Part shown: in pieces, positions 1 to 16,639 of the stretch
Layout: each line of letters opens with the position of its first letter
How positions within the stretch are numbered: position 1 is the stretch's first letter
Origin: Microcaldota archaeon
GTDB lineage: Archaea; Micrarchaeota; Micrarchaeia; Anstonellales; VGKX01
Assembly (NCBI GenBank): GCA_021823945.1
Contig: JAKALW010000002.1
Coordinates: forward strand, 1-18,836
Direction: 5' to 3'
DNA: 18,836 nt
Notes under the pieces: generated by a model
Databases searched by the model: none
Seen by the model: the letters and a program-made list of their open reading frames with translations, nothing else
What the model was told of the DNA's origin: nothing
Program-made: the position numbers and the translations under genes

Positions 1-372
1 ATCTGCCCTGGAACTGGCGGAGGCAGCGGCGCGGCGGGCGGCGCGAGAAGCCCGGGCGCGCAGCACACAATGGAGAAAGACGAATTCGAGCTTGTGGACA
101 GCTATGGCGTGAAAATCAAGGCGGCGCGAGAGAGGCTCGGATTGCCCCTTGCAGTGCTTGGCGAAAGGATAGCGGAAAAGGAGTCTTTCCTTGAAAGGAT
201 TGAGAAGGAAACAGCAAAGCCTTCAGACCCGCTTGCGAAAAAGCTCGAAAAGGAGCTTGGCATCACAATACTTGAACAGGCGTCCTCCATGCCATTCCAG
301 ACGGGCGGGAAGCCTGGGAAGGACATCACGCTTGGCGACGTCATAGAGATTGTCAGGAAAAAGAAAAAGTAA
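1..372 (+). CDS. MBF1-like transcription factor, N-terminus cut by window edge
   Basis: The frame is open from base 1 to the TAA at 370-372, so this is the C-terminal part of a longer protein. The first ATG (base 70) is probably internal. The visible part begins with a Gly/Ala-rich linker and continues into a helix-turn-helix domain of the Cro/XRE type (from GVKIKAAR through the FLERIEKET segment), ending in a lysine-rich tail. This matches archaeal multiprotein bridging factor 1, in which an N-terminal zinc ribbon precedes a linker and an HTH domain. MBF1 proteins act as transcriptional co-regulators and associate with ribosomes in some archaea. The expected zinc ribbon would lie left of the window; only one Cys (codon 2) is visible. 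A generic XRE regulator remains possible. Confidence 0.75.
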   Translation: MCPGTGGGSGAAGGARSPGAQHTMEKDEFELVDSYGVKIKAARERLGLPLAVLGERIAEKESFLERIEKETAKPSDPLAKKLEKELGITILEQASSMPFQTGGKPGKDITLGDVIEIVRKKKK

Positions 373-441
373 AAAACATTAGAATGACTGGATAGATATA
401 GTGCCGCAAAAGAGAAAACTCAGATATAATTGAGGGGAACA

Positions 442-726
442 ATGGCAAAAGGCGAAATAAGCGTATGTCCGAACTGTGGAACCCCTGCACTCGCAAAAAA
501 CTATGGGGGCGTCCGAGCCATTGGCCCTTTCCGCTGCAGCCAATGCGGATATTATGGCACAACATTAACTATTCCAAAAAATGAATATGGCAGGATAAAA
601 TTCAAGAACGCTAAAATTGGAATGAGCGCAAAGGAATTGGAAGCCAACAAATTGATTGCATACCTGACGATATTCCTTATCATTGCAGTTGTTGTTGAAT
701 TTATAGCAAGGACATATCATCTCTGA
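442..726 (+). CDS. small zinc-ribbon protein with C-terminal membrane helix
   Basis: This 94-residue protein starts at ATG 442, preceded by a GAGGGG ribosome-binding site at 432-437. A TTG at 430 would add four residues but sits upstream of that site. Residues 9-35 carry two Cys pairs (CPNC and CSQC), a zinc-ribbon signature. Residues about 72-90 form one hydrophobic helix (IAYLTIFLIIAVVVEF), so the ribbon is probably tethered to the membrane at the cytoplasmic face. It lies between the MBF1-like gene and FEN1, with its own short AT-rich upstream region. I do not recognise a named family. Small zinc-ribbon membrane proteins are common in archaea and mostly uncharacterised. Confidence 0.7.
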   Translation: MAKGEISVCPNCGTPALAKNYGGVRAIGPFRCSQCGYYGTTLTIPKNEYGRIKFKNAKIGMSAKELEANKLIAYLTIFLIIAVVVEFIARTYHL

Positions 727-810
727 AAAATGCCGATAGAACATTGGATTTTGAAAATATGCAACCTAAGAAATCTGTTCAATGAAAACCAATAGCCAAT
801 AAGTGATTTC

Positions 811-1848
811 ATGGGCGTATCTATTTCCGAACTTGTGAAGCCGAGGGAGACCTCATTTTCCGAGTTCTCCGGCAAAATAGTCGCGATTGACGCCTACAAT
901 ACGCTTTACCAGTTCCTCACCTCTATCAGGCAGCCTGACGGCACGCCGCTTTCAGATTCAAACGGCAACCCGACTGGGCACCTGACAGGCCTGTTTTACA
1001 GGACAACAAAGCTTCTGGAAGCTGGCGTGTTGCCGGTATTTGTCTTTGACGGCGTGCCACCGGAATTCAAGCGCGCGACCTTGGAGAAAAGGCACGACAT
1101 CAAGGTATTGGCGCACGCTGACATGGAGGCTGCCCTGAAAGCTGGCGACTTTGACGCGGCAAAGAAATTCTCGGCACGCACTGTCAGGCTCACAAAGGAA
1201 ATGGCGCTTGAGGCCCAGGGGCTTCTCAAGGCAATGGGCGTCCCTTCAGTCAATGCGCCAAGCGAGGGCGAGGCGTGCGCGTCCGTCATGGTCCGCGAGG
1301 GAATAGCATACGCTGTAGCGTCGCAGGATTATGACGCGCTCCTTTTTGGCGCGCCGAAACTGATTCGGAACATGTCTGTTTCAGGCAAGCGCAAAATGCC
1401 AGGCAGGAATGAGTGGGTTGAAACAAGCCCCGAACTGCTCGAACTTCCCGAAGTGTTGAAGCATCTTGAGCTTACGCAAAAACAGCTGATTTGGATTGGC
1501 ATACTCATTGGAAATGATTTCAATACAGGGATAAAGGGGATTGGCCCGAAAAAGGCGCTGAAGATTGTGAGGGCGTGCAAGTCCCTCGAGGAAGTCGTCG
1601 CATACGCGCGCGCGGAATTGGAATATGAATTTCCCGAAGATGTTTTCGCAATTGAAAGGTTCTTTTTGGACCCGCCCGCAGTCCACGACGAATACCTGGA
1701 ATTCGGGAAAATTGACAAGGAAGGCGTTGTTAATTTCCTGTGCAAGAAGCACGACTTTTCGGAAGAGCGCGTATCGCGCACGCTTGGCGCACTGGCAAAG
1801 AACGTGCAGGAAAAAAGGGCGCAGAAAGGATTAGGAGAATGGTTTTAA
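811..1848 (+). CDS. fen: flap endonuclease 1 (FEN1)
   Basis: Structure-specific 5' nuclease that removes 5' flaps during Okazaki-fragment maturation and long-patch repair. The 345 residues match the usual archaeal length, and the ATG gives the conserved N-terminal MGV that sits in the active site. Metal-binding acidic residues fall where expected: D27 (AIDAYN), D80 (VFVFDG), E152 and E154 (SEGEA), D173 and D175 (SQDYDA), and D236 (IGNDF), followed by the helix-hairpin-helix GIKGIGPKKA. The last eight residues, QKGLGEWF (338-345), are a canonical PCNA-interacting box, so recruitment to the sliding clamp is expected. Upstream is a 84-bp gap with only a weak AGTGAT ribosome-binding match. T-rich tracts follow the stop. 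Confidence 0.96.
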   Translation: MGVSISELVKPRETSFSEFSGKIVAIDAYNTLYQFLTSIRQPDGTPLSDSNGNPTGHLTGLFYRTTKLLEAGVLPVFVFDGVPPEFKRATLEKRHDIKVLAHADMEAALKAGDFDAAKKFSARTVRLTKEMALEAQGLLKAMGVPSVNAPSEGEACASVMVREGIAYAVASQDYDALLFGAPKLIRNMSVSGKRKMPGRNEWVETSPELLELPEVLKHLELTQKQLIWIGILIGNDFNTGIKGIGPKKALKIVRACKSLEEVVAYARAELEYEFPEDVFAIERFFLDPPAVHDEYLEFGKIDKEGVVNFLCKKHDFSEERVSRTLGALAKNVQEKRAQKGLGEWF

Positions 1849-1855
1849 GGAAAAA

Positions 1856-2116
1856 TCAATTTTTTCCTTTATTCAATATTTTTTTAAGAAGTACAGAATC
1901 ATACTTCATTCTCTCTGTATTCCAATCTGTTTCATCCCAAATAATTTTCTCATAAATATCAGATGGAAAAATACCTACACAACCTTTCAATTTCCACCAA
2001 GAAATAGATTGTCCATCTAGGTTATTATTTTTAATTCGTATTTGTGGCGAGTTACTACTGAAATAATTACGGATAGAATCAAAAACTGAAGGTAATTCAG
2101 TAATTTCTCTAGCCAT
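1856..2116 (-). CDS. hypothetical 86-residue ORF, doubtful
   Basis: An open frame of 86 residues, convergent with FEN1 and clearly more AT-rich than it. The predicted protein is Asn/Ile/Lys-rich with several Trp residues (SISWWK, DETDWN) and no motif I recognise. Translation signals are odd. The GGAGAG ribosome-binding sequence is about 17 bases from ATG 2116 and better placed for an upstream ATG at 2126. That upstream ATG (or one at 2141) opens a short frame ending in TAG inside ATGGCTAG, overlapping this start by the wrong frame. This could be a real small gene, a frameshifted remnant or a chance ORF. It sits next to vapBC in an AT-rich island, so recent acquisition is plausible. Confidence 0.35.
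   Translation of the reverse strand: MAREITELPSVFDSIRNYFSSNSPQIRIKNNNLDGQSISWWKLKGCVGIFPSDIYEKIIWDETDWNTERMKYDSVLLKKILNKGKN
1860..1885 (+). terminator. oligo-T terminator tracts after FEN1
   Basis: Runs of six T (1860-1865) and seven T (1879-1885) start 11 bases after the FEN1 stop. Archaeal RNA polymerase terminates on oligo-T tracts without needing a hairpin. The tracts overlap the 3' end of the doubtful minus-strand ORF. Confidence 0.5.
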
Positions 2117-2188
2117 TAAATCTCATTCTCTCTCCTTCCATCGGCATCTTAACACCGCCGAGCATATTCTACCTAGAGACCTTCAATC

Positions 2189-2584
2189 TCATTTCGGCTC
2201 CTGGCGCAGGATTCCTTTGGCCTTGTCAAAGCCTTGGTCATAACTGCATATGACATCTAACCCATTGGCAACCATAGTAGCCGCATGATAGGCATCGGTT
2301 GTGTCAAGATTGTAATCAATAAACCGAATGACATGATCAAGGCACCTGTCATCCACAGGCAAAATGATAAGATTTGGCATTTTTCTAATTTGTAAAAAGA
2401 TATGGCGCCCTCTTTCCAACCCCTGATTTGTTAAAAAGAAGTGCAAAACTTCGTTCAAGACAAGAATACTTGTATGGGCACGCACTTCTCCAGTAATTAT
2501 TCTTCTAAGAAGAGCCTGAGAATTCCTGGATTTTTTATCCCCAAATTCATAGGCATAAATGAAAACATTAGCGTCCAGGAACAT
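2189..2584 (-). CDS. vapC: VapC-type PIN-domain toxin
   Basis: A 131-residue PIN-domain ribonuclease, the usual size for a VapC toxin. The acidic active-site set is visible: D4 in FLDANVFIY, E45 in VLNEVLH, D97 in TTDAYHA, and D116 and D120 in SYDQGFD. VapC enzymes cleave RNA, often initiator tRNA or the sarcin-ricin loop of 23S rRNA; the target here cannot be read from sequence. The ATG at 2584 overlaps the end of the upstream antitoxin gene by 17 bases, which implies translational coupling. Assignment to the toxin half of a pair is firm because of gene order and the antitoxin type. Confidence 0.93.
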   Translation of the reverse strand: MFLDANVFIYAYEFGDKKSRNSQALLRRIITGEVRAHTSILVLNEVLHFFLTNQGLERGRHIFLQIRKMPNLIILPVDDRCLDHVIRFIDYNLDTTDAYHAATMVANGLDVICSYDQGFDKAKGILRQEPK

Positions 2585-2822
2585 TCAACCACTCATCTTC
2601 CATTTTCTTCTTGGATTTGAGAATTTTATCGTATATAGCAGCATCAGCAGTTTTTTCCCTGGATATGAGCGCCTCAAATTCCTCTAAAAAAGCATCTGTG
2701 TTTTCAATAATAGCCTTATTGCCCTCAAGCCGGACATTCACATGGCTGCGAGGAGTAATTTTTAGAGCATCGCGTATATATTTAGGCAAAAGGATTTGCC
2801 CTTTGTCGTATACTTCAGCCAT
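2568..2822 (-). CDS. vapB: VapB-type antitoxin, AbrB/MazE fold
   Basis: An 84-residue protein. Residues 1-45 form a SpoVT/AbrB swapped-hairpin DNA-binding domain (DKGQILLPKYIRDAL, then VNVRLEGNKAIIE). The C-terminal half is charged and helical and is expected to wrap and inhibit the PIN toxin. The start ATG is preceded by GGTG (2828-2831 on the complementary strand) five bases upstream. It is the first gene of the pair, overlapping vapC by 17 bases, and has a palindrome at its promoter, as expected for an antitoxin that represses its own operon. Confidence 0.9.
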   Translation of the reverse strand: MAEVYDKGQILLPKYIRDALKITPRSHVNVRLEGNKAIIENTDAFLEEFEALISREKTADAAIYDKILKSKKKMEDEWLNVPGR

Positions 2823-2833
2823 AATAGCACCGA

Positions 2834-2852
2834 GTTATACCTTAAGTATAAC
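2834..2852 (-). promoter_or_regulatory. palindromic operator at the vapBC promoter
   Basis: A perfect inverted repeat, GTTATAC-CTTAA-GTATAAC, ends 11 bases upstream of the vapB start codon. A TATA-like TTAAATAA on the minus strand lies just beyond it (about 2853-2860), so the palindrome covers the predicted transcription start. This is the layout of an autorepressor site for a dimeric AbrB-type antitoxin. Binding itself is inferred. Confidence 0.7.
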
Positions 2853-2908
2853 TTATTTAATAATCTTCCTTTAGATGCAAATCAACGACCTAGATTTGCA
2901 ATTGCGTT

Positions 2909-3958
2909 TCACCACCCATAAATCCGTCTTATTGCGGCTTCCAGAAGGACTCGGACCACTTCCCCTTCGTCCTCTGAAATCGGGACAAGCACTGACTGGA
3001 CAGAGCCGTTTGTGCCCTGCTCCGACGCCTTCAATGAATAGCCAAATGAAATGCCTTTTGAAAATTCTAGCACTGTGTTTCGCGTGTCCTTTGACGACTC
3101 GTACTGCCCCTTTGACGGGTCGTGGTAGAGTTTTGCCGACTTTGTGGAGCCTGTCAGGACAGAGAGCATCTTGCCAATGTCGGTTATTGAGAGCTTCATG
3201 GTGATTTTGTGCTCCCAGTCGAACTTCTGCTCGCCAATCTGCTTTGACACGTCTATGAATATGCTCTGCTTCTCCGCGTTCAGGTCAAGGGAAAACGCGC
3301 TTCCCGAATTGGCCTTTGTGGCCTTGTACAGTCGGAAAGGCGCGCCCCTCTTTTCATTGGAGCCGGAACTTGAATTTGATTGCGAGTTATAATTGGAGTA
3401 TGAACTTCTCCATGATGGCTGCGCCTGATTTGAAGAAGTGCCAGCTTGGCTTTTCCATGCCGATTGGGATTGCGAATTTGAAGAGTATGAAGGCTTTTGC
3501 TCCTGCGGATAGGATGGCTTTGCCTGTTGGTATGAAGGTTTTTGATTTAGTATTTCGGGTTTTGAAACAGGCACAGACGGCTTCTGCTCGTATGACACCT
3601 GCTTTTGCCATCCCGCAGGTTGGCTTGGCGGGGCAGGTTGGCTTGATTGATATGAAGTTGAAGGCTTTTGTTCATGGGAAGAAACAACTTGCTTAGGTTC
3701 TGGAGAATACGCGGGCGTTTGGGGAGCAGAAGCGGGCGACTGCGGGATATACTGTTTTTTTTGCTCAGTGATTGCAGGCTTGATGTCAGGAGAAACAGGT
3801 TTTGGCGTTTCCTGTTTTGCCGCCTGTGGCTGCGCAGAAGGTGTAGGATTGTCAAAGCTTGTCAGGCTCGGATAAATCTTCTTGTTCTGCGCAGGGGAAG
3901 AGTTTGACGGCTGGCGGGCATTAGAGCCAGAGTTGGAATTAGAATTTGTGTCTGCCAT
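2909..3958 (-). CDS. Whirly-like ssDNA-binding protein with long disordered N-terminal tail
   Basis: A 349-residue protein in two parts. Residues 1-203 are low-complexity (Ser, Gln, Pro, Asn, Tyr) with repeated QKPSY-like units between 97 and 160; this should be disordered. Residues 204-349 are a compact domain with a run of landmarks resembling plant Whirly proteins: FRLYKA (208-213), FDW (246-248), LSITDIG (256-262), HDPSKG (279-284), VPIS (325-328) and a terminal GW (348-349). Whirly proteins bind single-stranded DNA as tetramers and protect organelle genomes. A role as an archaeal ssDNA- or RNA-binding protein is inferred from this pattern, not shown. The start ATG follows AAGAGG (3969-3974). 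It is transcribed away from the hairpin-rich intergenic region and stands alone. Confidence 0.75.
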   Translation of the reverse strand: MADTNSNSNSGSNARQPSNSSPAQNKKIYPSLTSFDNPTPSAQPQAAKQETPKPVSPDIKPAITEQKKQYIPQSPASAPQTPAYSPEPKQVVSSHEQKPSTSYQSSQPAPPSQPAGWQKQVSYEQKPSVPVSKPEILNQKPSYQQAKPSYPQEQKPSYSSNSQSQSAWKSQAGTSSNQAQPSWRSSYSNYNSQSNSSSGSNEKRGAPFRLYKATKANSGSAFSLDLNAEKQSIFIDVSKQIGEQKFDWEHKITMKLSITDIGKMLSVLTGSTKSAKLYHDPSKGQYESSKDTRNTVLEFSKGISFGYSLKASEQGTNGSVQSVLVPISEDEGEVVRVLLEAAIRRIYGW

Positions 3959-4066
3959 GTTGGTCGGTCCTCTTGTATTTCATGAAAGCCAATTGAATTC
4001 AAGGGATTAATAATCAATATGCCTTCAGATTCCGGTCGCCTTGCGCATTCAGTGATTATGAGGGGA

Positions 4067-4196
4067 GGGGATGCAGGCAGAAGAGGGTATCAAACCGCCT
4101 GCATCTCCCAAGAGGATTTAAACGGCTTATGTCGCCGTTGACATGTTAATAGGTGTGAATATTGGCGGCTTTTAAACGCCCCTGGGGGTGTTTTTC
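4067..4196 (+). ncRNA. candidate structured RNA (three hairpins and a T-run)
   Basis: Three inverted repeats follow one another. First, 4067-4078 pairs with 4097-4108 (12 pairs, one G-T), with GGT/ACC (4086-4088, 4094-4096) able to pair inside an asymmetric loop. Second, AACGGC (4121-4126) pairs with GCCGTT (4134-4139) across 7 bases. Third, GGCG (4164-4167) pairs with CGCC (4177-4180). A short CCCC/GGGG element then runs into TTTTT (4191-4195), resembling an end point. The following gene has its own TATA box at 4229-4238, so this is more likely a separate transcript than a leader. The strand is assumed from the T-run. It could also be only a protein-binding region. Confidence 0.35.
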
Positions 4197-4228
4197 CAGT
4201 AATATTAACCTCGTAAACATACAATAGG

Positions 4229-4238
4229 CTTAATAAAG
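4229..4238 (+). promoter_or_regulatory. TATA box of the cobalamin adenosyltransferase gene
   Basis: CTTAATAAAG is centred about 26 bases before ATG 4260, so transcription should begin at or next to the start codon and give a leaderless mRNA. No ribosome-binding site is seen there, which agrees. Confidence 0.55.
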
Positions 4239-4259
4239 AAGAGTTGCATTTTCTTACCT

Positions 4260-4874
4260 ATGGCAAACGACGAAACCCCGGTCAAGGTGTATACCCGCAA
4301 AGGCGATGGCGGTTCCACTGCCCTCTACGGCGGCATGAAGGTTCGCAAAGACGAGGCCAGGATAGAGGCTGTCGGGACAATAGACGAGCTCAACTCAGTA
4401 ATCGGGCTGGCGCTTGTCCATACAAAGACGCCAGAAAGCGTTTTCCTCACAACTGTCCAGGAGGACCTCTTTGACATTGGCGCGGTCATTGGCACCACCC
4501 CGGGCATGCCCCAGCCGGTAGACATGGAATTTTTGGAATGGCAGACCAAGGAAATCGAGTCCAAGATAGACGCCATGTCCAAGCAGCTCCAGCCATTGAA
4601 CACTTTCATACTTCCAGGCGGTTCCGACGCGTCCGCGCATCTCCACCACGCAAGGACTGTCTGCAGGCGCGCGGAAAGGTGCCTTGTAAGCCTCAATGAG
4701 GAGGAAAAGGTGCCGCAGAACATAATTGGCTATGTTAACAGGCTTTCGTCATATTTGTTCGTGCTTGCGAGGTTTGAGAACCTTCACGCGGGGCGCCCCG
4801 ACCTCAAATGGGAGGCGAGGAGGAAATCCGACAAGACTGACACGACACTTGCCAATTTTGACAAAAAGCAATAG
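4260..4874 (+). CDS. ATP:cob(I)alamin adenosyltransferase, PduO type
   Basis: This 204-residue enzyme transfers the 5'-deoxyadenosyl group of ATP to reduced cobalamin, making adenosylcobalamin. Family motifs are in order: YTRKGDGGSTALY (11-23, ATP-binding loop), GTIDELNS (39-46), LPGGSDASAHLHHAR (118-132), RRAER (136-140) and NRLSSYLFVLAR (160-171). In many homologues the fourth residue of NRLSD is Asp; here it is Ser163. The family assignment is very secure. Nothing else in the window makes or uses cobalamin, so a salvage role is likely. The gene is predicted to be leaderless and is followed after 111 bases by a DHH gene on the same strand. Confidence 0.95.
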   Translation: MANDETPVKVYTRKGDGGSTALYGGMKVRKDEARIEAVGTIDELNSVIGLALVHTKTPESVFLTTVQEDLFDIGAVIGTTPGMPQPVDMEFLEWQTKEIESKIDAMSKQLQPLNTFILPGGSDASAHLHHARTVCRRAERCLVSLNEEEKVPQNIIGYVNRLSSYLFVLARFENLHAGRPDLKWEARRKSDKTDTTLANFDKKQ

Positions 4875-4985
4875 GCTACAGCCAGGCCCATTCCCGCGCG
4901 CACGCCGTCATTTTTACAAAGATGCCGGCATGAAATCAAATTTCCATTATGCAATGAGTGCGCCCGCAGCCAAAAGTGTTTTCTT

Positions 4986-5885
4986 ATGAGACTCATAACG
5001 CACACAGACATGGACGGCGTCGCATGCGCAGTCCTGATAACCACGGTCGAACAGGTCGACGAGATAAAGTTCATAGACCCCGGGGCAGTCCAGGCGGGCA
5101 AAGTCCAGATAGGCGAAAACGACATAATGGCGGACTTGCCATTTGACGGCAGGGCTGGATTGTGGTTTGACCACCATGAATCCTCAAAACCGCCGGAAGG
5201 CAAGAAATTCGAGGGCATGTTCCGGATAGCCCCGAGCGCAGCTCGGGTGGTTTACGAATACTACGATAACCCCTATCTTGAGAAATACGAAAATCTCGTG
5301 GAAGAAACCGACAAGATAGATTCAGGGCAGGTAACTTTAGACCAGGTCACAAACCCAACAGGCCTGTTTTTGCTGTCAAACACACTTGAGACAAGCGCGC
5401 CAAAGTCCGAGGACGACCATTACAGGCGCCACGTCATAAGCCTGCTGAGGAAAAGATCAATAGAGGAAACGCTTGCTGACAGGCACGTGGCAGAAAGGTG
5501 CGCCAAGGTCCTTGGGGAGTTCGAGGTTTTCAGGAAAATCATAAGGGAAAACACGGTCATGATAGGCAAGGTGGCGTTCTCCGACCTGAGGCAAAGGCCT
5601 GACCTGCCTAGGGGCAACAATTTCCTCATATACTCGCTGTTCCCCGAGGCAGTCACGTCTGTTCGGATACAGCCGCTTGGCGAGGACAAGGACCATGTCA
5701 AGATTTCAGCGGGGCATAACATATACGGCGAGAAGTCCGAATTCAATGTGGGCGAGGCAATGAAGAGGATAGGCGGCGGCGGGCACAAGCCGGTCGGCGG
5801 CGCAAGCGTGGCAAAGGAAGCTGCTCACGAGCTTGCGATGCGCATTGTCAGGGAAATCAATGATTTTGAGGAAAAACAGGGCTGA
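4986..5885 (+). CDS. DHH-family phosphoesterase (DHH plus DHHA1 domains)
   Basis: A 299-residue protein of the RecJ/NrnA-like DHH superfamily. Metal-binding motifs are HTDMDG (D8, D10), the signature DHH at 62-64 and the ETDKIDSG acidic patch (D109, D112). The C-terminal DHHA1 substrate-binding domain ends in the GGGGH loop (263-267). Such proteins hydrolyse phosphodiester bonds in nano-RNA, pAp, cyclic dinucleotides or ssDNA; the substrate cannot be settled from sequence. The length fits stand-alone archaeal members rather than full RecJ. The ATG at 4986 places the first motif at the extreme N-terminus, as is normal. No clear ribosome-binding site precedes it. Confidence 0.9.
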   Translation: MRLITHTDMDGVACAVLITTVEQVDEIKFIDPGAVQAGKVQIGENDIMADLPFDGRAGLWFDHHESSKPPEGKKFEGMFRIAPSAARVVYEYYDNPYLEKYENLVEETDKIDSGQVTLDQVTNPTGLFLLSNTLETSAPKSEDDHYRRHVISLLRKRSIEETLADRHVAERCAKVLGEFEVFRKIIRENTVMIGKVAFSDLRQRPDLPRGNNFLIYSLFPEAVTSVRIQPLGEDKDHVKISAGHNIYGEKSEFNVGEAMKRIGGGGHKPVGGASVAKEAAHELAMRIVREINDFEEKQG

Positions 5886-6008
5886 AGAGGCCGAAAGGGC
5901 ACGGGAAAAGCAAAATGATGGATAGAAAGGCATCAAGTGGCAGCCATGGCAATCCCCATGGGAATTTTCGCCCCTCATGTGCAAAGGTCAAAAACGGGCG
6001 CCAAGGGA

Positions 6009-6023
6009 ATATATTTTATATTA
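6009..6023 (+). promoter_or_regulatory. TATA box for the cystine-knot surface protein gene
   Basis: ATATTTTATATTATA-type sequence, the most AT-rich stretch between 5886 and 6060. Counting about 25 bases downstream puts the transcript start near 6038-6043, at the ATG cluster 6041/6044. This argues against the upstream starts at 5915 and 6026. Confidence 0.6.
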
Positions 6024-6040
6024 TAATGGGGCAAATGTGT

Positions 6041-8026
6041 ATGATGGTTGGAAGAAATCGGGTTTTCCTTGTTTTCATGCTGTTGCTTTCGGCAACAGCG
6101 TTTGCCAATGCGTATAATGTGTCATTTGTTAATAATGCCGGCGCAGTGACTGTCCTGAACTATGACACGCTTTCAGGCTCGTACATTGATGCAAACACGA
6201 ACCCGAACATACTTGTCAGGGCGTGCGGGATAGGCACCAATGGGAAATACGCCGCTTTGGCTTACAGCGGCGGGAATGCCACGCTAGTCATAAGCCAGCA
6301 GGCGGGGCCGCTTGGCAATGCCATAAGGATACCAGCCACTGCAACAGACTGCGTAGACATAGACCTGGACGTATCAAGCTTCCTCGCCGCATACCCCGGA
6401 CAGCCCGAACTCGTGATTTCAAACGACTCTTTCGTGTCCCAGGACGACGACTTCTACATGATTGGCGCGGAAAATGGCACATTGGTGGGCTATTACACTG
6501 CGTCGGGAACAGCCGACTCGGAAAATTTGACAATAACCATAGAAAAGATCGGCACCACTCTGGCGTGCAGCCAGCCAAACGAGATAACAGGCTCTAAAAA
6601 ACTCATTGTGGCCTGCGCGCACGACAATGCGGGCGCAAAATCGTGTGTCCTGGCGTCGCCCGCCGGGCCAATAATAGTGCCATTGAACGGGCTTAACTAT
6701 TCCTATTTCACATTGAACAACAAGCTGCAGATGACCTGCGTGTCAGGCTGCCAGGGCGGCACAGTCCTGTGCCCTGACGGCGCATGCAGGACAAGCTGCG
6801 GGGGAGGGGGCGGAACCACTAACGACAACATATATTCCCAGGCATCCGCAAACTGCACAAACGAGACTGCCACAATCACTTTCAGGAACGCCCTGAACGC
6901 GCTGTTTTCTCCTTCAACTGTCACGGTTTTGTTTGGAGGAACTCAGCAATCCACCCAGCTTGTTTCCGCTGGCACATACACACTGACACCGCACGAAGCA
7001 GGCACATATGACGTGTTGGCGACAAGCCCGGGTTTCACGCCATATTCTGGCAGTTTCAATGTCAACAACTGCGCCACCCCGCCAGCATGCAAGGAAAACG
7101 ACTTTTCATGCTCGCTTGGTTATGACTGTTGCTCTGGCTTTTGCAACTCATTTGGCGTTTGCGCCAATGCCACAGCGCCGCAGAACGCCACGCAGAACAA
7201 TACCGGAGGCAACAGGCCGCCGACGGAAAAACAGATTACAATTAGCGTGTCAGCCACGTGCATCGGCAAGGACGGCAGCCTTTACGTCGACCCCAAAGAT
7301 TCAGTGGTCACGCTTTACAGGCAGGATTCGGGCTCATACGTGAGCCTTGCCCTGACGCAGGGCGTCGTTGGGTACACATTCATGCCTAAGATTGCGGGCG
7401 CATACGAGGTCAGGGCGACAAAATCAGGATACCTGGACTCCACGCTCCCTTTCCAGGTATATGACTGCACACAGCCGCCCGCTTGCGTTGCAAGCGGGCT
7501 TGAATGCGCCACTGACACAGATTGCTGCTCTGATTACTGCAACCAGACTTCAAGGCTTTGCGAGCAGAGGCTGCCTCTCGCCACGTGCGTTGCAAAAGGC
7601 GGCTCATGCAATGCCACCGGAGACTGTTGCGTGGGCGCGTGCGTTTCAGGCACGTGCTCAGTCTGCTCCGCCACGCTTGGGCTTTGCAGGACAAGCGCGG
7701 ACTGCTGCGAGGGATACTGCTCAAGCAACAAGTGCGTGCTCCCAAGCGCAGACACCACCTTGATAGGCACGCTTGCGGACAAGGAAAAAAGCCAGAGCCT
7801 GTGGCCGGTGGTCGTAGGCCTTGCGGCGATAGCGGCATATGCTGGCGTGACCACGGGCGCAAGGATAGTCCCGCCCGCGGCATTCGCCCTGCCTATACTC
7901 GTGGGCTTCTTCTCATTGCCTTTCCTGGGCATACTCGCGGCAGTCGCGGAGATAATAATCGAGAAAACCGACCTTGGCGGGATTGTTTCAAGGCTTGGGA
8001 AAAAGCCTGCGGAAAAAAAGAAATAG
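6041..8026 (+). CDS. secreted, membrane-anchored protein with four cystine-knot-like repeats
   Basis: I place the start at ATG 6041 because the TATA box at 6009-6023 predicts a transcript start there. The frame is open back to 5915, but a signal peptide (basic GRNR, hydrophobic core, cut after AFANA) begins only here. The protein is 661 residues. After an unassigned N-terminal region come two beta-sandwich, Ig/carboxypeptidase-regulatory-like repeats (about 261-349 and 397-481). Each ends in a PPAC sequence leading into a Cys module. Four modules with spacing C-X6-C-X5-CC-X3-C-X(4-6)-C lie at 350-374, 482-507, 516-539 and 542-565. Two or three hydrophobic segments and a basic tail (KKPAEKKK) anchor the C-terminus. 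A cell-surface adhesion or interaction role is inference. Confidence 0.85.
   Translation: MMVGRNRVFLVFMLLLSATAFANAYNVSFVNNAGAVTVLNYDTLSGSYIDANTNPNILVRACGIGTNGKYAALAYSGGNATLVISQQAGPLGNAIRIPATATDCVDIDLDVSSFLAAYPGQPELVISNDSFVSQDDDFYMIGAENGTLVGYYTASGTADSENLTITIEKIGTTLACSQPNEITGSKKLIVACAHDNAGAKSCVLASPAGPIIVPLNGLNYSYFTLNNKLQMTCVSGCQGGTVLCPDGACRTSCGGGGGTTNDNIYSQASANCTNETATITFRNALNALFSPSTVTVLFGGTQQSTQLVSAGTYTLTPHEAGTYDVLATSPGFTPYSGSFNVNNCATPPACKENDFSCSLGYDCCSGFCNSFGVCANATAPQNATQNNTGGNRPPTEKQITISVSATCIGKDGSLYVDPKDSVVTLYRQDSGSYVSLALTQGVVGYTFMPKIAGAYEVRATKSGYLDSTLPFQVYDCTQPPACVASGLECATDTDCCSDYCNQTSRLCEQRLPLATCVAKGGSCNATGDCCVGACVSGTCSVCSATLGLCRTSADCCEGYCSSNKCVLPSADTTLIGTLADKEKSQSLWPVVVGLAAIAAYAGVTTGARIVPPAAFALPILVGFFSLPFLGILAAVAEIIIEKTDLGGIVSRLGKKPAEKKK
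7088..7735 (+). repeat. four knottin-like cysteine modules within the surface protein
   Basis: Modules at 7088-7162, 7484-7561, 7586-7657 and 7664-7735 share an identical cysteine framework, differing only by 0-2 residues in the last loop. Modules 1 and 2 are separated by an Ig-like domain; modules 2-4 are close together. Confidence 0.85.
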
Positions 8027-8098
8027 GTTTCCAAAGCCCAAAAGTGCGCATAAGAAGAAATCAGAAGGCAAGGCGGCTTTTCCAGACGCCAGGGAAAA

Positions 8099-8659
8099 TC
8101 AGTATCCAAGCGAGGATATTATCTTCGAGCTTTTGAGTATTCCAGGCGCCTTGTCCAATTCGAGCTTCACTATTTTGGCATTGCCAGTCTGGACGATTTT
8201 GGGGTTCTGGTCATACCCGAACACTACTACATCGGGTTTTGCGCGCTCCAAAAGCTCCTCTTTCCTTGCAAGCCCGCCCATTGCCAGGTCAACAGGCTTC
8301 AGGCTTTTTACGACGTAGAGCCTGTATTCCAGCGGGTGGAGAAGCTTGCCTTTTGACTTTTTGGCAGTTTCATCTGTGGCTACCACGACAAATAGGAAAT
8401 TCCCAAGTTTTGCCGCCTCAGTGAGCGTGAACACGTGCCCGGCATGGAGAAGGTCGAACACACCGCCAGTCATGACAACAGTGAGTTTTTTGCGCGCCGC
8501 GGGCAAAAGAAAATATCCGGCGCCTTCCCCGCTTGCCGTGCCCCGGGCAAGGAGCTTCCTTTCCTGTTCAGTTAGCAGGGCATAGTCCTTTTCAGGAATG
8601 CCATTGCCTGCGACCTGGATTGCAAAGAGCTTTTTTACTATTTCAAGTTCCGAGGGCAT
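8099..8659 (-). CDS. ribL: RibL-like FAD synthase (cytidylyltransferase fold) with N-terminal extension
   Basis: A nucleotidyltransferase of the HxGH class. Motifs (numbering from ATG 8659) are GGVFDLLHAGH (65-75), VVVATDETAKKSKGK (91-105), LKPVDLA (120-126) and PDVVVFGYDQ (142-151). These match archaeal RibL, which adenylates FMN to FAD, better than phosphopantetheine adenylyltransferase. Glycerol-3-phosphate cytidylyltransferase is the main alternative. A start at ATG 8659 is preferred over TTG 8665. Unlike minimal RibL proteins of about 150 residues, this has about 58 extra N-terminal residues, probably helical. It is convergent with the surface-protein gene (72-base gap) and 99 bases downstream of AsnRS on the same strand. 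Confidence 0.75.
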   Translation of the reverse strand: MPSELEIVKKLFAIQVAGNGIPEKDYALLTEQERKLLARGTASGEGAGYFLLPAARKKLTVVMTGGVFDLLHAGHVFTLTEAAKLGNFLFVVVATDETAKKSKGKLLHPLEYRLYVVKSLKPVDLAMGGLARKEELLERAKPDVVVFGYDQNPKIVQTGNAKIVKLELDKAPGILKSSKIISSLGY

Positions 8660-8758
8660 GTTCAAACATCCAATTGCATTTCGCGATTATCAGGCAGTGG
8701 CGCCAGGCAAAAATTCCATTGCCAAGGCACTCTGCCCTCCCTATTTTTTGCAAATCGG

Positions 8759-10078
8759 CTACGGGTAAACCCTGTTGATTGTGCGCGGGAACGGGATGGC
8801 GTCCCTGATGTGGTCAAGGTTGAGCATCCATTTCACGAGCCTTTCAATCCCAAGCCCGAAGCCCGAATGCGGCACCGAGCCGTATTTCCTCAGGTCAAGA
8901 TACCACTGGTAGTTCTTGACGTCAAGGTTCTCCTCCCTTATCCTTTGGAGGAGGTAATCGTATTCCCAAATCCTTTCAGAGCCGCCGATTATCTCGCCGT
9001 GCCCGAAAGGGGCTATCATGTCGGAGTTAAGGACAGTCTCCGGGTTCTCCGGGTCTGGCCTCATGTAGAATGACTTGATTTTTTTCGGGAAATTGTGGAC
9101 GAACACTGGCATTGACTTGCCCTTTGTGAGCAGTGCCTCCTCGTCAGCCCCGAAATCCTCGCCCCACGCCATCTTGCCGCCATTGGCATTGACAATCTCT
9201 ATTGCCTTTGTGTAGGGTATGCGCTCGAATGGCGCCTTTATGGAAGCGAGATATGCAGGGTCCTGCCCGCACGCCTTGACAATGTCGGAGTGCCTTGAAG
9301 CAAGGTTGTTTGCAACGTATGCAATCATCTTCTCCTGGAGTTCCATGTTCATGGCATTGCTGTAGAATGCCATTTCAGGCTCGAGGTGCCAGTACTCTGC
9401 CAAATGCCGCACGGTCCTTGACGGCTCCGCGCGGAAAGAAGGCGCAAGCACATAGACTTTCTCAAGCGCGGTGATGTATATTTCAGCGTAAAGCTGGCTT
9501 GACTGGGTAAGATACGCCTTGTCGCCAAAATAATTCACTTCAAAAAGTGTCGAGCCGCCCTCGCAGCCCGCCTTTGTGATGATTGGGGGCGCGACCTCGA
9601 AAAACCCTTCCTTGTCGAAAAACTCGCGAAGCAGGCCGAGCATGTAATACCTCGCCTTCATGACGTTTGTCAGCTTTTGCGACCTCAGCCACAGGTGGCG
9701 CGTGTCAAGCAGGAACTCCGTAGACTGGTCCTTTGCTATTGGGAATGCCTCGCCCAGGCATATGACGCCTATATTGTCGCATGTAAGCTCGAACCCGCCA
9801 GGCGCGCGGGAATCCTCGCGCACAGTGCCCTCTGCCCAAAGCGACGACTCTACGTAAATGCCCTTCGCCTTGTCGAACACGTCAGCTGGCACGGAATCCT
9901 TCTTGAAAGCGCACTGGATTATTCCCGAGGAGTCGCGGATTACTATGAATGCCAGGTTATTGGACGCGCGGGCCCTGTATGCCCAGCCGCGCACGCGCGC
10001 GCGCTTGCCATTTAGAGAGCCAGACAGCACGTCGCTGATTTTTGAAATCCCTTCCGAGCCTACGCCTTCATCCGCCAT
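8759..10078 (-). CDS. asnS: asparaginyl-tRNA synthetase
   Basis: Class IIb aminoacyl-tRNA synthetase of 439 residues that charges tRNA(Asn) with asparagine. An OB-fold anticodon-binding domain (about 25-110) precedes the catalytic core. Motif 2 is PSFRAEPSRTVRHL with EYWHLEPEM (213-236), and motif 3 is GFGLGIERLVKW with PFPRT (406-427). The sequence TQSSQLYAE (191-199) and the overall core favour AsnRS over AspRS, in which SPQLYKQ is usual. Its presence implies direct Asn-tRNA charging instead of amidation by Gat enzymes. GGTG at 10087-10090 (minus strand) lies eight bases before the ATG. LonB lies 51 bases upstream on the same strand, so co-transcription is possible. Confidence 0.93.
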   Translation of the reverse strand: MADEGVGSEGISKISDVLSGSLNGKRARVRGWAYRARASNNLAFIVIRDSSGIIQCAFKKDSVPADVFDKAKGIYVESSLWAEGTVREDSRAPGGFELTCDNIGVICLGEAFPIAKDQSTEFLLDTRHLWLRSQKLTNVMKARYYMLGLLREFFDKEGFFEVAPPIITKAGCEGGSTLFEVNYFGDKAYLTQSSQLYAEIYITALEKVYVLAPSFRAEPSRTVRHLAEYWHLEPEMAFYSNAMNMELQEKMIAYVANNLASRHSDIVKACGQDPAYLASIKAPFERIPYTKAIEIVNANGGKMAWGEDFGADEEALLTKGKSMPVFVHNFPKKIKSFYMRPDPENPETVLNSDMIAPFGHGEIIGGSERIWEYDYLLQRIREENLDVKNYQWYLDLRKYGSVPHSGFGLGIERLVKWMLNLDHIRDAIPFPRTINRVYP

Positions 10079-10129
10079 AAATTACACACCTAAGAACGGG
10101 CCGTTGCCCATAACGCATTTAATTTAATT

Positions 10130-12289
10130 TTACTTCCTTCCTTTGCCCCTGGCTTTTGCCTTGGCTTTTCCTTCAGGCACAGGCTTTAGCTTCTTGGCCG
10201 GAGGCACTGGCGCCAAAGCCTGCTTGGGCTTTTCCCTGCCATGCTGCTGCTTGCCAAGTTCAGATATTGAAAAGCTTGAAATCAGCCTATCCTTGTTCGG
10301 GCCTGGCTTGAGGCAGTGCTTGAGAATCTCCACTATGTTCGAGACCGAGACAATGCCTATCTTGCCCTTCATGTCAGGCGCAAGGTAAATGTCGTCCACA
10401 TTGGTTTTTGGGACAATGACGTGGGTTATGCCAGCGCCAATCGCTGCTTCTGTCTTTGCCGTTATCCCGCCGATTGGCAGGACCTCGCCACGCACTGTGA
10501 GCGAGCCGGTGAGCGCGTATGACTGGTCAACTGGTATGCCTTCCATTGCGGAAATGACAGCAAGGGCGATTGACACGGAGGCGGAATCGCCCTCGACGCC
10601 CTCGTATGTCTGGATGAATTGGACGTGGATGTCGTACTGCGACACGTCCTTGCCAATGTGCTTCTTGATGATTGCGGAGACATTCTCAACTGCCTCTTTG
10701 GCTATTGTGCCAAGCTTGCCCGTGACTATGAGCTTGCCCTCGCTTTTCGAGGATGCGGGGGTCACTTCCGCGACTATGGGCATGACAAGGCCGCTTGAAC
10801 CGTCGCCAAGCACTGCCAAGCCATTGACTTTCCCGACTTCCCAGCCGGATATGGAATACATGCTGTAATCCTTGCGGTACTCGACGCTCCTCGTTGAAAT
10901 CTGGTGCTCGAGCGTCTGGGCAATCGGCTTTGCGCGGAGCACTATGTCGCGCTCCACAAGCGGTTTGCCCTCGTCGCGCGCAACGTCGCCTGCGACCCTG
11001 ACCAGGCCGCCAAGCTCCCTCAAGTTCAAGGTGAGCCTGTTTTTCCTGCCAGCCTTCCTGCGCGCCTCGTCAATGACTTCCATGACCGCGTCGTAGGAGA
11101 AGTGCGGGATTTTCCCGTCCTTTCGGACTTCCTGGGCTATGAACTGGACAATCTTCTCGCGGTTTTCCTCAGTGTCGGGCATCGAGTCCTCGACATAGAC
11201 CTCATAGCCATTGCCGCGTATCCTTGAGCGGAGTGCCGGGTGCATGCGCGCCATGTCATGGACATTGCCTGCCGCGACCAATACGAAGTCGCACGGGACC
11301 TCCTCAGTCTTGACAATGGCGCCCGAGGACATCTCGGATTGCCCAGTAATCGAGTATTTCTTTTCCTGCATAGCGGTGAGAAGCTCCTGCTGGCTGTGCG
11401 GCTTCAATGACGCGATTTCGTCAATGAAAAGCACGCCCTTGTTCGCCTTGTGTATCGCGCCGGCCTCAACGCGCAGGTGCGCTGGGGTTCCAAGCCCGCC
11501 AGATTGCAACGGGTCGTGGCGCACGTCGCCAAGAAGCGCGCCAGCCCTGCCGCCAGTGGCGTCAACGAATGGAGCTGTCCTCTTGCCAGTGTTGTCCACA
11601 ATCAGCTTCGGGTCGAGATACTCGAAGGCGCCCATTCTTTTCCCAAGCGAGTTCGTGAACCGCCACAGGAGGTAAATTATCGTGAGGCCGAATATGACTG
11701 CAAGCAGGAACCACTTGTTGGCGTCCGTCAACCCGCCGCTTGCGAGGGTCAAAATGACCGCGACCATGAGTATCAGGAGGAATACCATTGCCGGGTTTAT
11801 GCCTTTCCCCTGGACAGACACCTGGGACGTCTTGCCTAGGTAAAGAATGCGCCTGCCCTGGCCCCACTCTGCCATGTTGATGTTCTCCTTAGGGGTAGCG
11901 TCGTAAGGGTTTTCCTGCGCATCAGGCTTGGCCTTCTGGGTATTCTGCTGCGTGATTATCTGGGCAAAACCTCGGTAGAGCCTGGACAGGAAAGAGTTTT
12001 GCCGGATTTCCGAGTCAGACGGATATGTCTTGACGGCTTTGACCTGCGGCTTGTTTTCGTCATTCGGGTTAGGGTAGACAAGAATGTCGAGCAGGTCCTC
12101 TGCGGGCATGAGCTGGGCCATAGCCCGCGCAAGCATGCTTTTTCCCGTGCCAGGCGCGCCAAGAAGAAGGACGTTTCTCCTCTGCTTTGCCGCCTTTTTG
12201 ATGATTTTCACCGCTGAATCCTGGCCTACGACTTGGTCTATGAGCATGGGGGGGACTGTTATCTCCTCGGTTGTCTTGAATTGTTTCAT
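10130..12289 (-). CDS. lonB: archaeal membrane-bound Lon protease (LonB)
   Basis: ATP-dependent AAA+ protease, 719 residues. Walker A is GAPGTGKS (44-51). Two transmembrane helices (about 165-185 and 192-210) are inserted between Walker A and Walker B, the hallmark of archaeal LonB. Walker B is GVLFIDE (285-291). The C-terminal protease domain has the Ser-Lys dyad: S569 in EGDSAS and K612 in ITAKTEAA. It degrades unfolded and regulatory proteins at the inner membrane face. A Lys/Pro/Ala-rich basic tail after about residue 680 looks like an unusual extension. The ATG follows AGGTG (12298-12302, minus strand). A 15-base-period repeat lies just upstream. Confidence 0.96.
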
Positions 12290-12305
12290 GAATAAAACAC
12301 CTACT

Positions 12306-12333
12306 TGGCATAAGAGCTTCTGGCATAAGAGCT
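12306..12333 (-). repeat. two direct copies of a 13-base element upstream of lonB
   Basis: TGGCATAAGAGCT occurs at 12306-12318 and 12321-12333, so the period is 15 bases. It lies between the lonB ribosome-binding site and the end of the TldE-like gene. It may be an operator or part of the lonB promoter (each copy has a CTTATG core on the minus strand), or a small tandem duplication. Confidence 0.6.
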
Positions 12334-12335
12334 GG

Positions 12336-12341
12336 AAAAAA
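12336..12341 (-). terminator. T6 tract directly after the TldE-like gene
   Basis: On the minus strand six T residues follow the TGA stop after a single base. This is enough for archaeal oligo-T termination and separates this gene from lonB downstream. Confidence 0.4.
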
Positions 12342-12342
12342 G

Positions 12343-13668
12343 TCAGTTCGAGCCCACAACGTCGACTTCCCTAAACATTATCCTTGGCGATATGAGATTT
12401 AAAAACCTACCCTGATTTTTATCGACGGCTGAGATGCTCCCGAAAAGCCTGAAAACATTGCCTGAAATCATGACATTCTTGACCGGCTTGCGCACGCCAT
12501 TTTTGGCATCGCACAGGAATGCCAGGTCCGAAATTACGGAAAAATCTCCCGTGGTCGTGTTCGCCGTGTGCGTGCCGTGGAAAGAGTGTACCTCAAGGTG
12601 CCTGCCATCGGGCGGGCTTGCATCCTTGCCGGGCATTTCAACAACAAGGGTGGATTCGCCGCAGCCTGGCATTGACTGGAAAGAGCTCCTTGAGCAATTG
12701 CCAATTTCCCCGAGCGCGCCTTTGCCGCCAAGCAGGCACGCTGTCCGGCTGTCGAGCAAAAAGCCGGAAACAATGCCGCCCTTCACAAGCGGCTTTTTGG
12801 GCGAGGACACGCCTTCGCCGTCAAATGGCGAAAAAAAGCCGCGCTTCTCCGACGGGTCGTCGTACAAGGAGAAATCAGGAGAAAATTCCTGTTTCCCGAC
12901 CTTGCCGGACAGAAGCGACGTCTTCTGGACAAGTGAATCCCCGCCAAAGGACGGAAGGAGGATTTCGGAAATCATGGAATGGAGCGCGGGAAGCTCGAAC
13001 ACAATGTCGTATTTGCCCGAGGCGAGTGCCCCGGCGCCCGCTATTTCCCTTGCAAGCAGCGAGCTTTTCGCGCCTTCCGCTGCGGAACCTGACGCAAAGT
13101 CGGAGACATTCTGGCTCGAATACGCGGCATAGGCCGAATTGTCATTGAACTTGGCCTGCATGAAAGCCGATATTGAGCCGCCGCTTGTGGATTTGGACAT
13201 GCCGGACGAATTGGCAATAGAGCATACATATGATTCCACAGAGAATGCGCCTTCGAGGGCCACAGTGCCGCCCTCCTCGCACGAGGATATGAATGACTTG
13301 AAAAGCTCCATTGATTCCGCGGGCCCCATGTCCCGGATTTTCTCAAATTCAAAGGCAAGGGAGGCCGGGGGATGATGGCTTTTGCCCGGGCCGGGAAATG
13401 AATAGCCCTCGCATTTGGTTGACAAGCCTTGCATGTCCCTGGCGCGGGATATGGAATCCGGTATGCTGCGCTCGTCCTGGCAGTATGAGAATCCGAGCCT
13501 GCCCTCAGAATCGCAGACGCGGATGCCGAATCCCTCGAATTCCCTGCTCTCCTTGCTGGAGACTGAGCCGTTCAGGCACATGTAAGAGGATTCCACGGAG
13601 CGCTCGTGGTAGATTTCAAGTTCCAGCCCTGCGGGCGCGTGCCTGCGGATAACATCAGTTAAGTCCAT
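12343..13668 (-). CDS. TldE/PmbA-like peptidase-family protein
   Basis: A 441-residue member of the TldD/PmbA family when started at ATG 13668; the frame is open to 13740 but those extra residues look non-coding. The typical PmbA/TldE features are present: an early segment with [11 protein letters not shown], and a C-terminal [15 protein letters not shown] motif (364-378) with HG..ISGNVF following. No HExxxH metal-binding motif is seen, so this is the TldE-type subunit, not TldD. In bacteria and in Sulfolobus TldD and TldE form a peptidase acting on peptides and proteolysis products. No TldD gene is in the window. It sits upstream of lonB on the same strand. Confidence 0.88.
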
Positions 13669-13742
13669 GGGAATCAGCACAATTTTGGATGCGACTATTA
13701 TCCTGGCAGGCTTTCTCGCAAAGCCAGGGCAAGCCAGCATTT

Positions 13743-14744
13743 CTATTCAGAAGGCCTTGAAAGCCCAATCGAGAAATACGCTATTGCCGCGAACACGCAA
13801 ATCACGAGGAGCGCTATTGGCACGCCTACGGCGCTATTGGCGAGGGCTGCGGACACTCCTGCGGCATTCGCTATGGAGTCGGACACCAGGTTTTGGAGAC
13901 CAGACGCCGGGTTCCCTTGCCGCGCGCCTACCGCATTCTGGGCTGGAGCCTCATTTGCAAGCTGGGATGCGCTCATGGCAATGACAGAGCCCGCGGCATT
14001 CCTGCCAGTGACGTTCATGAGGTAAGTGCCGGCGCTTGTTGTCTCAAATACTGCAATGCCCTTGGAATCGGAAACTATGCTTTTCACTGAGCCGTCAGGC
14101 GATTGGACTGTGAGCCTTGAATTAGGGAGAGGGTTGCCCTGCGTGTCGGTTATCTTGGCGGACACGACTGTGCCCGTGGCGACTTTTGCCGGGCCAGCCT
14201 GGATGATTGCAGGGAGGGGCCTGATTGAATACGTGATTGGCAGGCGCTCCTGCGTTGTGCCAGCAGACGACTGGCTCGTTATCAGAAGGTCGCTTGAATA
14301 ATGCCCCGCAATGCTTGTCGGCAAAGGGTCAAGCCTGATTGCCACTGCTATCCTGTCTGCGCTGTCTATGTAACGAAGATTGGTGCAGATTGGGATTGGC
14401 TCACCCGTGGCGTAAGCGGAGATTGTGCCCTCGCACGCGGGCCCGCCGCTGTCCTCCTTGTCCGAGATTGACGTGACAAACATCTTCACCCTTGACCCCT
14501 CGCTTGTGGACAAGGTTATGTTGGAGATTGTGTTCCCGTCGTTTTGGATGTAGAACACCTGGGTCTTGCCGCCTGTGATGTCGCCAAAGTCAAGGCTTGT
14601 CATGTTTGGCTGGATTGAAAAATAATTCGTAGGCGTGATATTTACATTTATCTGGTACTGGGCATGGAGCGCAATGGACAATGAGAGAAGCGCCAGGATG
14701 AATGCCGGCAGATGGCTAAGCCTGGGACTATTGAGTTTTGCCAT
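13743..14744 (-). CDS. secreted Ig-like protein with C-terminal membrane anchor
   Basis: Start chosen at ATG 14744: a TATA-like CTTAAATAAC box at 14767-14776 predicts a leaderless transcript there, and a signal peptide (hydrophobic core FILALLSLSIALHA) begins just after. The 333-residue product has an N-terminal beta-sandwich with a DFGDI..G pattern and IQNDGN typical of pilus-assembly/NEW3-like folds. It then has an Ig-like segment (about residues 180-255: TVVSAKITDTQGNPLPN, then FETTSAGTYLMNV) of the carboxypeptidase-regulatory type. An Ala/Asn-rich linker and a single hydrophobic helix (IALLVICVFAAIAYFSI) with a short cytoplasmic tail end it. N-glycosylation sequons are frequent. No enzyme motif is visible; a surface structural or binding role is inferred. 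Confidence 0.82.
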   Translation of the reverse strand: MAKLNSPRLSHLPAFILALLSLSIALHAQYQINVNITPTNYFSIQPNMTSLDFGDITGGKTQVFYIQNDGNTISNITLSTSEGSRVKMFVTSISDKEDSGGPACEGTISAYATGEPIPICTNLRYIDSADRIAVAIRLDPLPTSIAGHYSSDLLITSQSSAGTTQERLPITYSIRPLPAIIQAGPAKVATGTVVSAKITDTQGNPLPNSRLTVQSPDGSVKSIVSDSKGIAVFETTSAGTYLMNVTGRNAAGSVIAMSASQLANEAPAQNAVGARQGNPASGLQNLVSDSIANAAGVSAALANSAVGVPIALLVICVFAAIAYFSIGLSRPSE

Positions 14745-14766
14745 GGCTATTTTTGGGATTGGCTGG

Positions 14767-14776
14767 CTTAAATAAC
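14767..14776 (-). promoter_or_regulatory. TATA box of the Ig-like membrane protein gene
   Basis: TTATTTAAG on the minus strand, centred about 27 bases upstream of ATG 14744. A strong hairpin (14776-14807) abuts its upstream side. Confidence 0.5.
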
Positions 14777-14833
14777 TTGCTACTTGGGCGTTGCCGCCCG
14801 TAGCAAGAATTAGAAATTTGCAAAGCAAATTTC
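14776..14833. repeat. two adjacent strong inverted repeats
   Basis: The first, 14776-14807, has CTTGCTAC paired with GTAGCAAG and, inside, GGGCG paired with CGCCC around a four-base loop; only a TT bulge interrupts it. The second, 14813-14833, is GAAATTTGC-AAA-GCAAATTTC. They lie between the lipoprotein gene (ends 14907) and the next gene, directly upstream of its TATA box. They may be terminators, regulator sites or remnants of a repeat element. Confidence 0.65.
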
Positions 14834-14906
14834 AAATACCTTACTGGTTTGGGGAGGAAAAGGGAAATGCCAAAGGGGCAATCGGGCAGGATTTGAAAGC
14901 CCCCAT

Positions 14907-15734
14907 TCATGCCTTCTTTTCCCTTATTTCCTGGATTAGGAATTCGCCGGAATACGTGCCCAACGTGGCATTTGCGGGTATTACCGCCTTTATCCAGATG
15001 TCGTGCTCTTCCCCAAGCCTGTACATGGTGAAGGGCTTTGGATATTCGAACATGCCTGAAATGTTGCCTGTGCCATTGAAATGCACGTATACTGCGGAAT
15101 CCTGCTCATTTGTCAGCACCACAAGCCTTGCCGATGATTTGCCTTCGGAAATAGTGCCCAGGTTGAGCACATCCGCGCCCATTGTGATATTGAAGGCGAG
15201 CAATGACACATTGTTGCTCACAGTTATTGAGACAGGAACGCCCTTTTCAGCGGCTGTGCCGTTTGCCGGGATATAAACAGGCGTTTCGTTTTCCGAGGAG
15301 TTTGACGCGGGCGGGGCATACTCGATTACGCGGACAACTGTCTTTTTCTCGCCATACTGGTCTGCTGCCTCGAAAACGAACCTGTTTGGCCCCTCCACAA
15401 GAGTAAGGTTCACTGTGAAAGCCCTGTCAACGAGCCTGATTGGCCTGCCGCTGATTGCGAGCGTGGCATTCCTGTTCAATATGCCATGGATGGTGATGAG
15501 CGAGACATTTGATTGCGCAGGGACGTCGATGAGCGAGATGTCAAGTGGCGTAAGATTGGCAGGCAGGGCAGGCTGGCTGGAATTTAGCGCAGGAGTGCCA
15601 TTGCCCGCGGGTCCAGTTCCAGTAGTAGTATTATTGCCCATTGGAATCGAGGGGGTTTGGACGCAGCCAAGCAGGAGCAATGAAAACACGGCAATTAGGG
15701 CAATGGTTAGGATTCCAGAGTATTCGGATTTCAT
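14907..15734 (-). CDS. surface lipoprotein with glucodextranase-B-like and Ig-like domains
   Basis: Start at ATG 15734, preceded by GGGTG (15741-15745, minus strand) with six bases of spacing; the GTG at 15743 is inside that site. The protein has 275 residues and opens with a lipoprotein signal ending in LLLLGC, with Cys24 as the probable lipid-attached residue. A Pro/Thr/Asn linker leads to a bacterial-Ig/glucodextranase-B-like domain (NATLAISGRPIRL, then VEGPNRFVFEAADQYGE), then a C-terminal beta domain ending in TYSGEFLIQE. The same layout occurs in the next lipoprotein upstream, so the two are paralogues. No catalytic residues are seen; binding or scaffold function on the cell surface is likely. 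Confidence 0.85.
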   Translation of the reverse strand: MKSEYSGILTIALIAVFSLLLLGCVQTPSIPMGNNTTTGTGPAGNGTPALNSSQPALPANLTPLDISLIDVPAQSNVSLITIHGILNRNATLAISGRPIRLVDRAFTVNLTLVEGPNRFVFEAADQYGEKKTVVRVIEYAPPASNSSENETPVYIPANGTAAEKGVPVSITVSNNVSLLAFNITMGADVLNLGTISEGKSSARLVVLTNEQDSAVYVHFNGTGNISGMFEYPKPFTMYRLGEEHDIWIKAVIPANATLGTYSGEFLIQEIREKKA

Positions 15735-15790
15735 GCAAAACACCCAAAATATGATTATGTCAGACTATTGCACGGATTATGGAGCCGAGG

Positions 15791-15800
15791 CTATAAAAAG
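15791..15800 (-). promoter_or_regulatory. TATA box of the 14907-15734 lipoprotein gene
   Basis: CTTTTTATAG on the minus strand lies about 60 bases upstream of ATG 15734, giving a leader of roughly 30-40 bases that contains the GGGTG ribosome-binding site. Confidence 0.55.
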
Positions 15801-16635: not shown

Positions 16636-16639
16636 TTTA

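Follow-up and report, generated by a model that had tools for sequence, protein, structure and literature searches.

The window analysed here is a stretch of 18,836 nucleotides from the genome of a Microcaldota archaeon, a member of the Micrarchaeota (assembly GCA_021823945.1, contig JAKALW010000002.1, positions 1 to 18,836). On its minus strand, at 2909..3958, lies a gene of 349 codons plus a stop, starting with ATG, whose product (P0001) consists of two dissimilar parts: a C-terminal domain (residues 206-349; 2912..3343, minus strand) and a disorder-prone N-terminal tail (residues 1-204; 3347..3958, minus strand) that is rich in serine, proline, glutamine and tyrosine and contains four QKPS repeats. 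The original prediction, made from the letters alone, had described the domain as Whirly-like on the basis of six short motifs, and all six are present, in the same order, within residues 208-349 of the protein: FRLYKA (208-213), FDW (246-248), LSITDIG (256-262), HDPSKG (279-284), VPIS (325-328) and the terminal GW (348-349). On the computational evidence of sequence profiles and predicted fold, the protein is an archaeal member of the Whirly family that carries a tail specific to its lineage.

The assignment is carried by several comparisons. The window protein matches the Pfam Whirly model (PF08536) with 48.5 bits (E 1e-12; cut-off 23), and the sole other Pfam match in the domain region, to Coatomer_b_Cpla, scores 15.1 bits against a cut-off of 32.7. 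In a single-sequence search of the PDB with phmmer, six distinct plant Whirly sequences were retrieved, headed by Arabidopsis WHY2 (4kop, E 3.5e-9), and the best match of any kind after them had an E-value of only 0.55. Profile-profile comparison with four plant Whirlies using hhalign gave a probability of 99.0% (E 3.2e-18). The structure model of the domain, with a predicted local distance difference test score of 93.7, consists of two stacked antiparallel β-sheets with helices; in structure comparisons of this model plant Whirlies rank first, followed by the trypanosome proteins MRP1 and MRP2. In the VIA-align structure comparison, none of the 50 rows was noticed to be an OB-fold chain, which is no proof of absence, and neither the window protein (near any cut-off) nor two bacterial relatives had a match in NCBIfam. 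Thus the Whirly-type domain proposed from the motifs is borne out by profile, profile-profile and structural comparison alike. In addition, all 47 aligned prokaryotic rows, including that of the window protein, match Whirly at E-values up to 0.01, and the positions conserved across at least 49 of 50 prokaryotic and at least three of four plant rows include K212, W248, K251, H279, Q314, E331 and W349. Known Whirlies assemble into tetramers, and into 24-mers on long single-stranded DNA (ssDNA); the second lysine of the plant KGKAAL motif is required for the 24-mers. The first lysine of this motif, K212 in the window protein, is present in 50 of 50 prokaryotic and four of four plant rows, and the residues after it align poorly.

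The original prediction had treated the protein as a single case, a description that proved incomplete, as the domain belongs to a family conserved in Micrarchaeota and Verrucomicrobiota. It is found in 21 of the 295 genomes of a Micrarchaeota phylum sample, that of the window counted. A DNA pattern run over the genome_contigs collection yielded 70 stretches, of which 49 were kept as Whirly, the frame carrying the domain, and 21 were dropped as chance matches or other proteins; the kept loci are 17 archaeal and 32 bacterial, the latter nearly all from Verrucomicrobiota. Alignment A2 comprises the window and 46 of these 49 loci, leaving out L053, L090 and L080, the last truncated by a contig end. 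As a separate observation, a phylum sample around a Verrucomicrobiota genome contains a divergent family (loci L144-L169), its proteins about 200 residues long, with a Whirly fold by prediction; its own profile detects it in 35 of 288 genomes, in one of which the Pfam Whirly model scores above cut-off. Alignment A5 contains 22 of 24 pattern-picked frames from these 26 loci (L144 and L163 were left out; L154 and L156 were not picked). The tree was built from 77 rows, namely the 47 of A2, three extra archaeal sequences, 23 of the 26 divergent Verrucomicrobiota loci and four plant fragments. In this tree the A2-type Verrucomicrobiota (29 rows) fall on one side of a branch with support 96/89, the divergent set (23 rows) on one side of a branch with support 97/76, and Micrarchaeota together with plants are split from bacteria with support 100/99. 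Plant Whirlies are drawn nested within Micrarchaeota, a placement we do not adopt: an alternative that groups all Micrarchaeota rows cannot be rejected (p-AU 0.477), and the position of the plants is unsure because their branch is long (3.27) and rests on four fragments only. As the tree is unrooted, it shows no direction of transfer.

Carriage of the gene by phages or plasmids was considered and set aside. Phage records searched with the window domain and plasmid records searched with one bacterial relative returned no match, PHROG gave none for the three proteins tried, and two pattern matches in viral_contigs read as helicase-like frames rather than Whirly. Given the lack of phage and plasmid matches in these searches, the Whirly gene looks chromosomal.

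Whether the protein acts beside or in place of a single-stranded-DNA-binding protein (SSB) or RPA, as the original prediction had left it, depends on what else the genome encodes. The bacterial SSB model PF00436, present in all five bacterial Whirly genomes tested and also matched in the Micrarchaeota sample genome G013 (contamination estimated at 6%), has no match in the window's genome. A search of that genome with PF01336 found four OB stretches: the window gene at 8759-10078, which reads as an asparaginyl-tRNA synthetase, two long frames, and one short frame on contig C87. The last is a 94-residue single-OB protein, whose top PDB matches, 2mna (E 2.5e-13) and 1o7i (E 2.6e-13), are both named SSB and come from Sulfolobus; its best NCBIfam matches are SSB models, under their cut-offs. 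The genome thus does encode an SSB-like protein, so that Whirly would stand beside SSB and not instead of it, and the "in place of" half of the earlier suggestion is not supported. A role like that of ThermoDBP, which is that of an SSB replacement, is rejected on the same grounds.

The gene neighbourhood of Whirly was compared across genomes. A FEN1-type flap endonuclease (811..1848, plus strand; Pfam XPG_N and XPG_I) is convergent with the Whirly gene, and the two also adjoin in the related genome G001 (contig C70), where they are convergent and about 50 bases apart. The window order is helix-turn-helix gene (HTH_3, above cut-off), zinc ribbon (below cut-off), FEN1 and Whirly; in G001, a zinc-ribbon and then a helix-turn-helix gene (by reading) lie beyond the Whirly/FEN1 pair. 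Between FEN1 and Whirly, the window has a PIN-domain gene with a MazE/AbrB-like partner (below Pfam cut-off), a pair of toxin-antitoxin type (2189-2822, minus strand) not present at this place in G001, and an 86-residue orphan frame (1856-2116, minus strand) with no Pfam match up to E 0.1. A gene of the DHH/DHHA1 phosphoesterase type (4986..5885, plus strand; cluster c17) has DHH motifs by reading and a DHHA1 score of 23.8 bits, under the cut-off of 25.9; it lies two genes from Whirly, and so does its relative in G169. Among 20 archaeal loci laid out (G093 and G147 included, G001 left out, the upstream side of G255 cut by a contig end), nine have a DHH/DHHA1 gene upstream on the same strand as Whirly, either directly (G065, G290, G246, G099, G122, G097 and G133) or with one intervening open reading frame on the opposite strand (G095 and G172), and in G065, G290 and G246 the two frames overlap by 8-17 bases. 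Five members of this DHH cluster were scanned: DHH was above cut-off in four and 0.1 bit below in the fifth, and DHHA1 above cut-off in two. One member has 5yh1 ("member of s1p family") as its top PDB match, at E 8.8e-21; RecJ-type exonucleases follow only from E 0.0087. Genes reading as TFB-, Trm1- and TrmB-like recur around these loci. The DHH family occurs in 241 of the 295 genomes, the window's included, so that its link to Whirly is one of gene order only, and an obligate partnership is rejected.

Other features of the window can be mentioned briefly. A short palindrome (3973-3992) lies immediately 5' of the Whirly start codon. Scans with Rfam (at gathering threshold) and for tRNAs found no matches within the window. 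Sigma-70 and terminator scans, which do not cover archaeal promoters, gave one site each, both on the plus strand at about 2785-2825 and below shuffle counts, and none in 3900-4300. A run of genes on the minus strand (13743-18709) reads as exported or membrane-anchored proteins, among them two paralogous-looking lipoproteins (14907-15743 and 15853-16764).

The reading we favour, and regard as likely, is that the Whirly-family protein coats single-stranded nucleic acid beside the SSB-like OB protein, in repair or RNA metabolism. By analogy with plant Whirly and MRP1/MRP2, the C-terminal domain would most likely assemble into a small ring and coat ssDNA, and perhaps RNA too, along its β-sheets. 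Since the genome encodes both proteins, the Whirly protein and the SSB-like OB protein could act alongside each other with a division of labour. Judging by the neighbouring genes (FEN1 here, a DHH gene of nuclease type in other families), the protein may protect single-stranded intermediates, or hand them over, during replication, repair or the processing of RNA, and the N-terminal tail would be a flexible, lineage-specific arm, probably tethering partners or other copies of the protein. One could instead suppose that the protein is chiefly an RNA binder, an RNA chaperone or RNA-processing partner comparable to the guide-RNA binders MRP1/MRP2 of trypanosomes; we think this rather unlikely, as in sequence the protein resembles plant Whirly, its Pfam matches up to E 10 (under HMMER's filters) do not include the MRP model, and the FEN1 neighbour in the window's own family is a DNA enzyme. 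The name of the Pfam family would suggest a transcription factor. That idea draws on a TFB-like gene in seven and a TrmB-like regulator in eight of the 21 genomes (fetched stretches; names by reading) and on the description of plant Whirlies acting in the nucleus together with transcription factors (PMC9070903), but the cluster list of the window has neither a TFB- nor a TrmB-like gene and passages of PMC9070903 and PMC6963530 emphasise nucleoid and ssDNA-binding roles, which makes it improbable.

A further objection concerns the tail, which might be an assembly or start-codon artefact preceding a Whirly of common size, about 150 residues. Across the 20 archaeal loci, ATG lies 6-21 residues before the YK motif in 15, while three more lack an ATG and have GTG or TTG 7-19 residues ahead instead; the extension reaches 51 residues in G246 and 210 in the window, no tail of comparable length occurs in the 19 other loci, and open frames other than that of the window extend at most 127 residues upstream. 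The GC content at third codon positions is lower in the tail (0.44) than in the domain (0.65) or in six neighbour genes (0.62-0.70), and the tail contains in-frame GTG codons, which leave room for a shorter start. Confirmation in the sister genome G001 failed, as only the last 44 Whirly residues are present at a contig end. Against an artefact, the single in-frame ATG of the gene stands at the start of the tail, the 51-residue extension of G246 abounds in T, A, S, P, N and Q, and the frame stays open in just 10 of 5000 dinucleotide shuffles, for which reason the tail is probably coding; we accordingly give the artefact little credence. The tail is N-terminal, as the original prediction had it, and its composition is that of a disorder-prone segment (204 residues; S 22%, P 14%, Q 14%, K 8%, Y 5%, and VILMFWC together 8.8%), and DNA repeats are present in the part that encodes it (3485-3676). 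From this composition the tail may be disordered and capable of phase separation. Longer extensions also occur in bacterial relatives (80 residues to the nearest ATG in L046, 53 in L037), and one relative, at 1501-2100 of L144, has a Q-rich tail at its C-terminus, the end opposite to that in the window protein.

Whirlies have been called plant-specific (PMC9070903) or unique to plants (PMC6963530, PMC11359715), and their origin has been placed in the ancestor of Chloroplastida, the green lineage (PMC11135702). The passages of these four papers that were consulted contain no description of prokaryotic Whirlies, although Pfam and UniProt pages may already list members. Among the titles listed for Whirly and archaea none is on an archaeal Whirly (subscription journals and preprints being outside the scope); those for Whirly and Verrucomicrobia are unrelated, and those for PF08536 concern plants only, again by title. 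The relatives in Micrarchaeota and Verrucomicrobiota indicate that this family is also present in archaea and bacteria. It is conceivable, although we hold this at somewhat less than even confidence, that the Whirly family of single-strand binders is of old prokaryotic stock and has a long history in these two phyla, that the Whirlies of plastids and mitochondria go back to one such gene acquired by the green-plant ancestor rather than to an invention of plants, and that the window lineage added an SSB-like arm at the opposite end. The Micrarchaeota and Verrucomicrobiota set provides candidates for the source of plant Whirlies, the compact relatives of about 140-160 residues should be easy to study, and an archaeon that already has an SSB-like protein is seen to encode, in addition, a presumed single-strand binder of a different, non-OB kind.

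Among known systems, the closest likeness is to plant Whirly (WHY1/2/3, PBF-2; PF08536), with which the window protein shares the profile match, the predicted fold, the motif order and the YK...DW..K...H...Q...E...W residues. It differs in its archaeal host, in its 22-26% identity in structural alignments, in the second lysine of KGKAAL, which has no clear counterpart in the alignment, in its long N-terminal S/P/Q tail and in ending at GW (residue 349) without the acidic/aromatic disordered C-terminal tail of plant Whirlies, for which last reason it is filed in the wider Whirly family and not in the plant-type subgroup. MRP1/MRP2 (PF09387) have a Whirly-like fold but are kinetoplastid proteins, with 15% identity to the window protein and no match to it by their Pfam model. 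PUR-alpha, including the bacterial Pur of Borrelia (BB0047), is built from PUR repeats, has no sequence match and ranks far under Whirly in both structure comparisons. Archaeal SSB shares the presumed ligand, ssDNA, but has another fold, and the OB protein is encoded separately in the same genome. Bacterial SSB (PF00436) combines a core with a flexible arm, as the window protein does, but its core is an OB fold and its arm is C-terminal.
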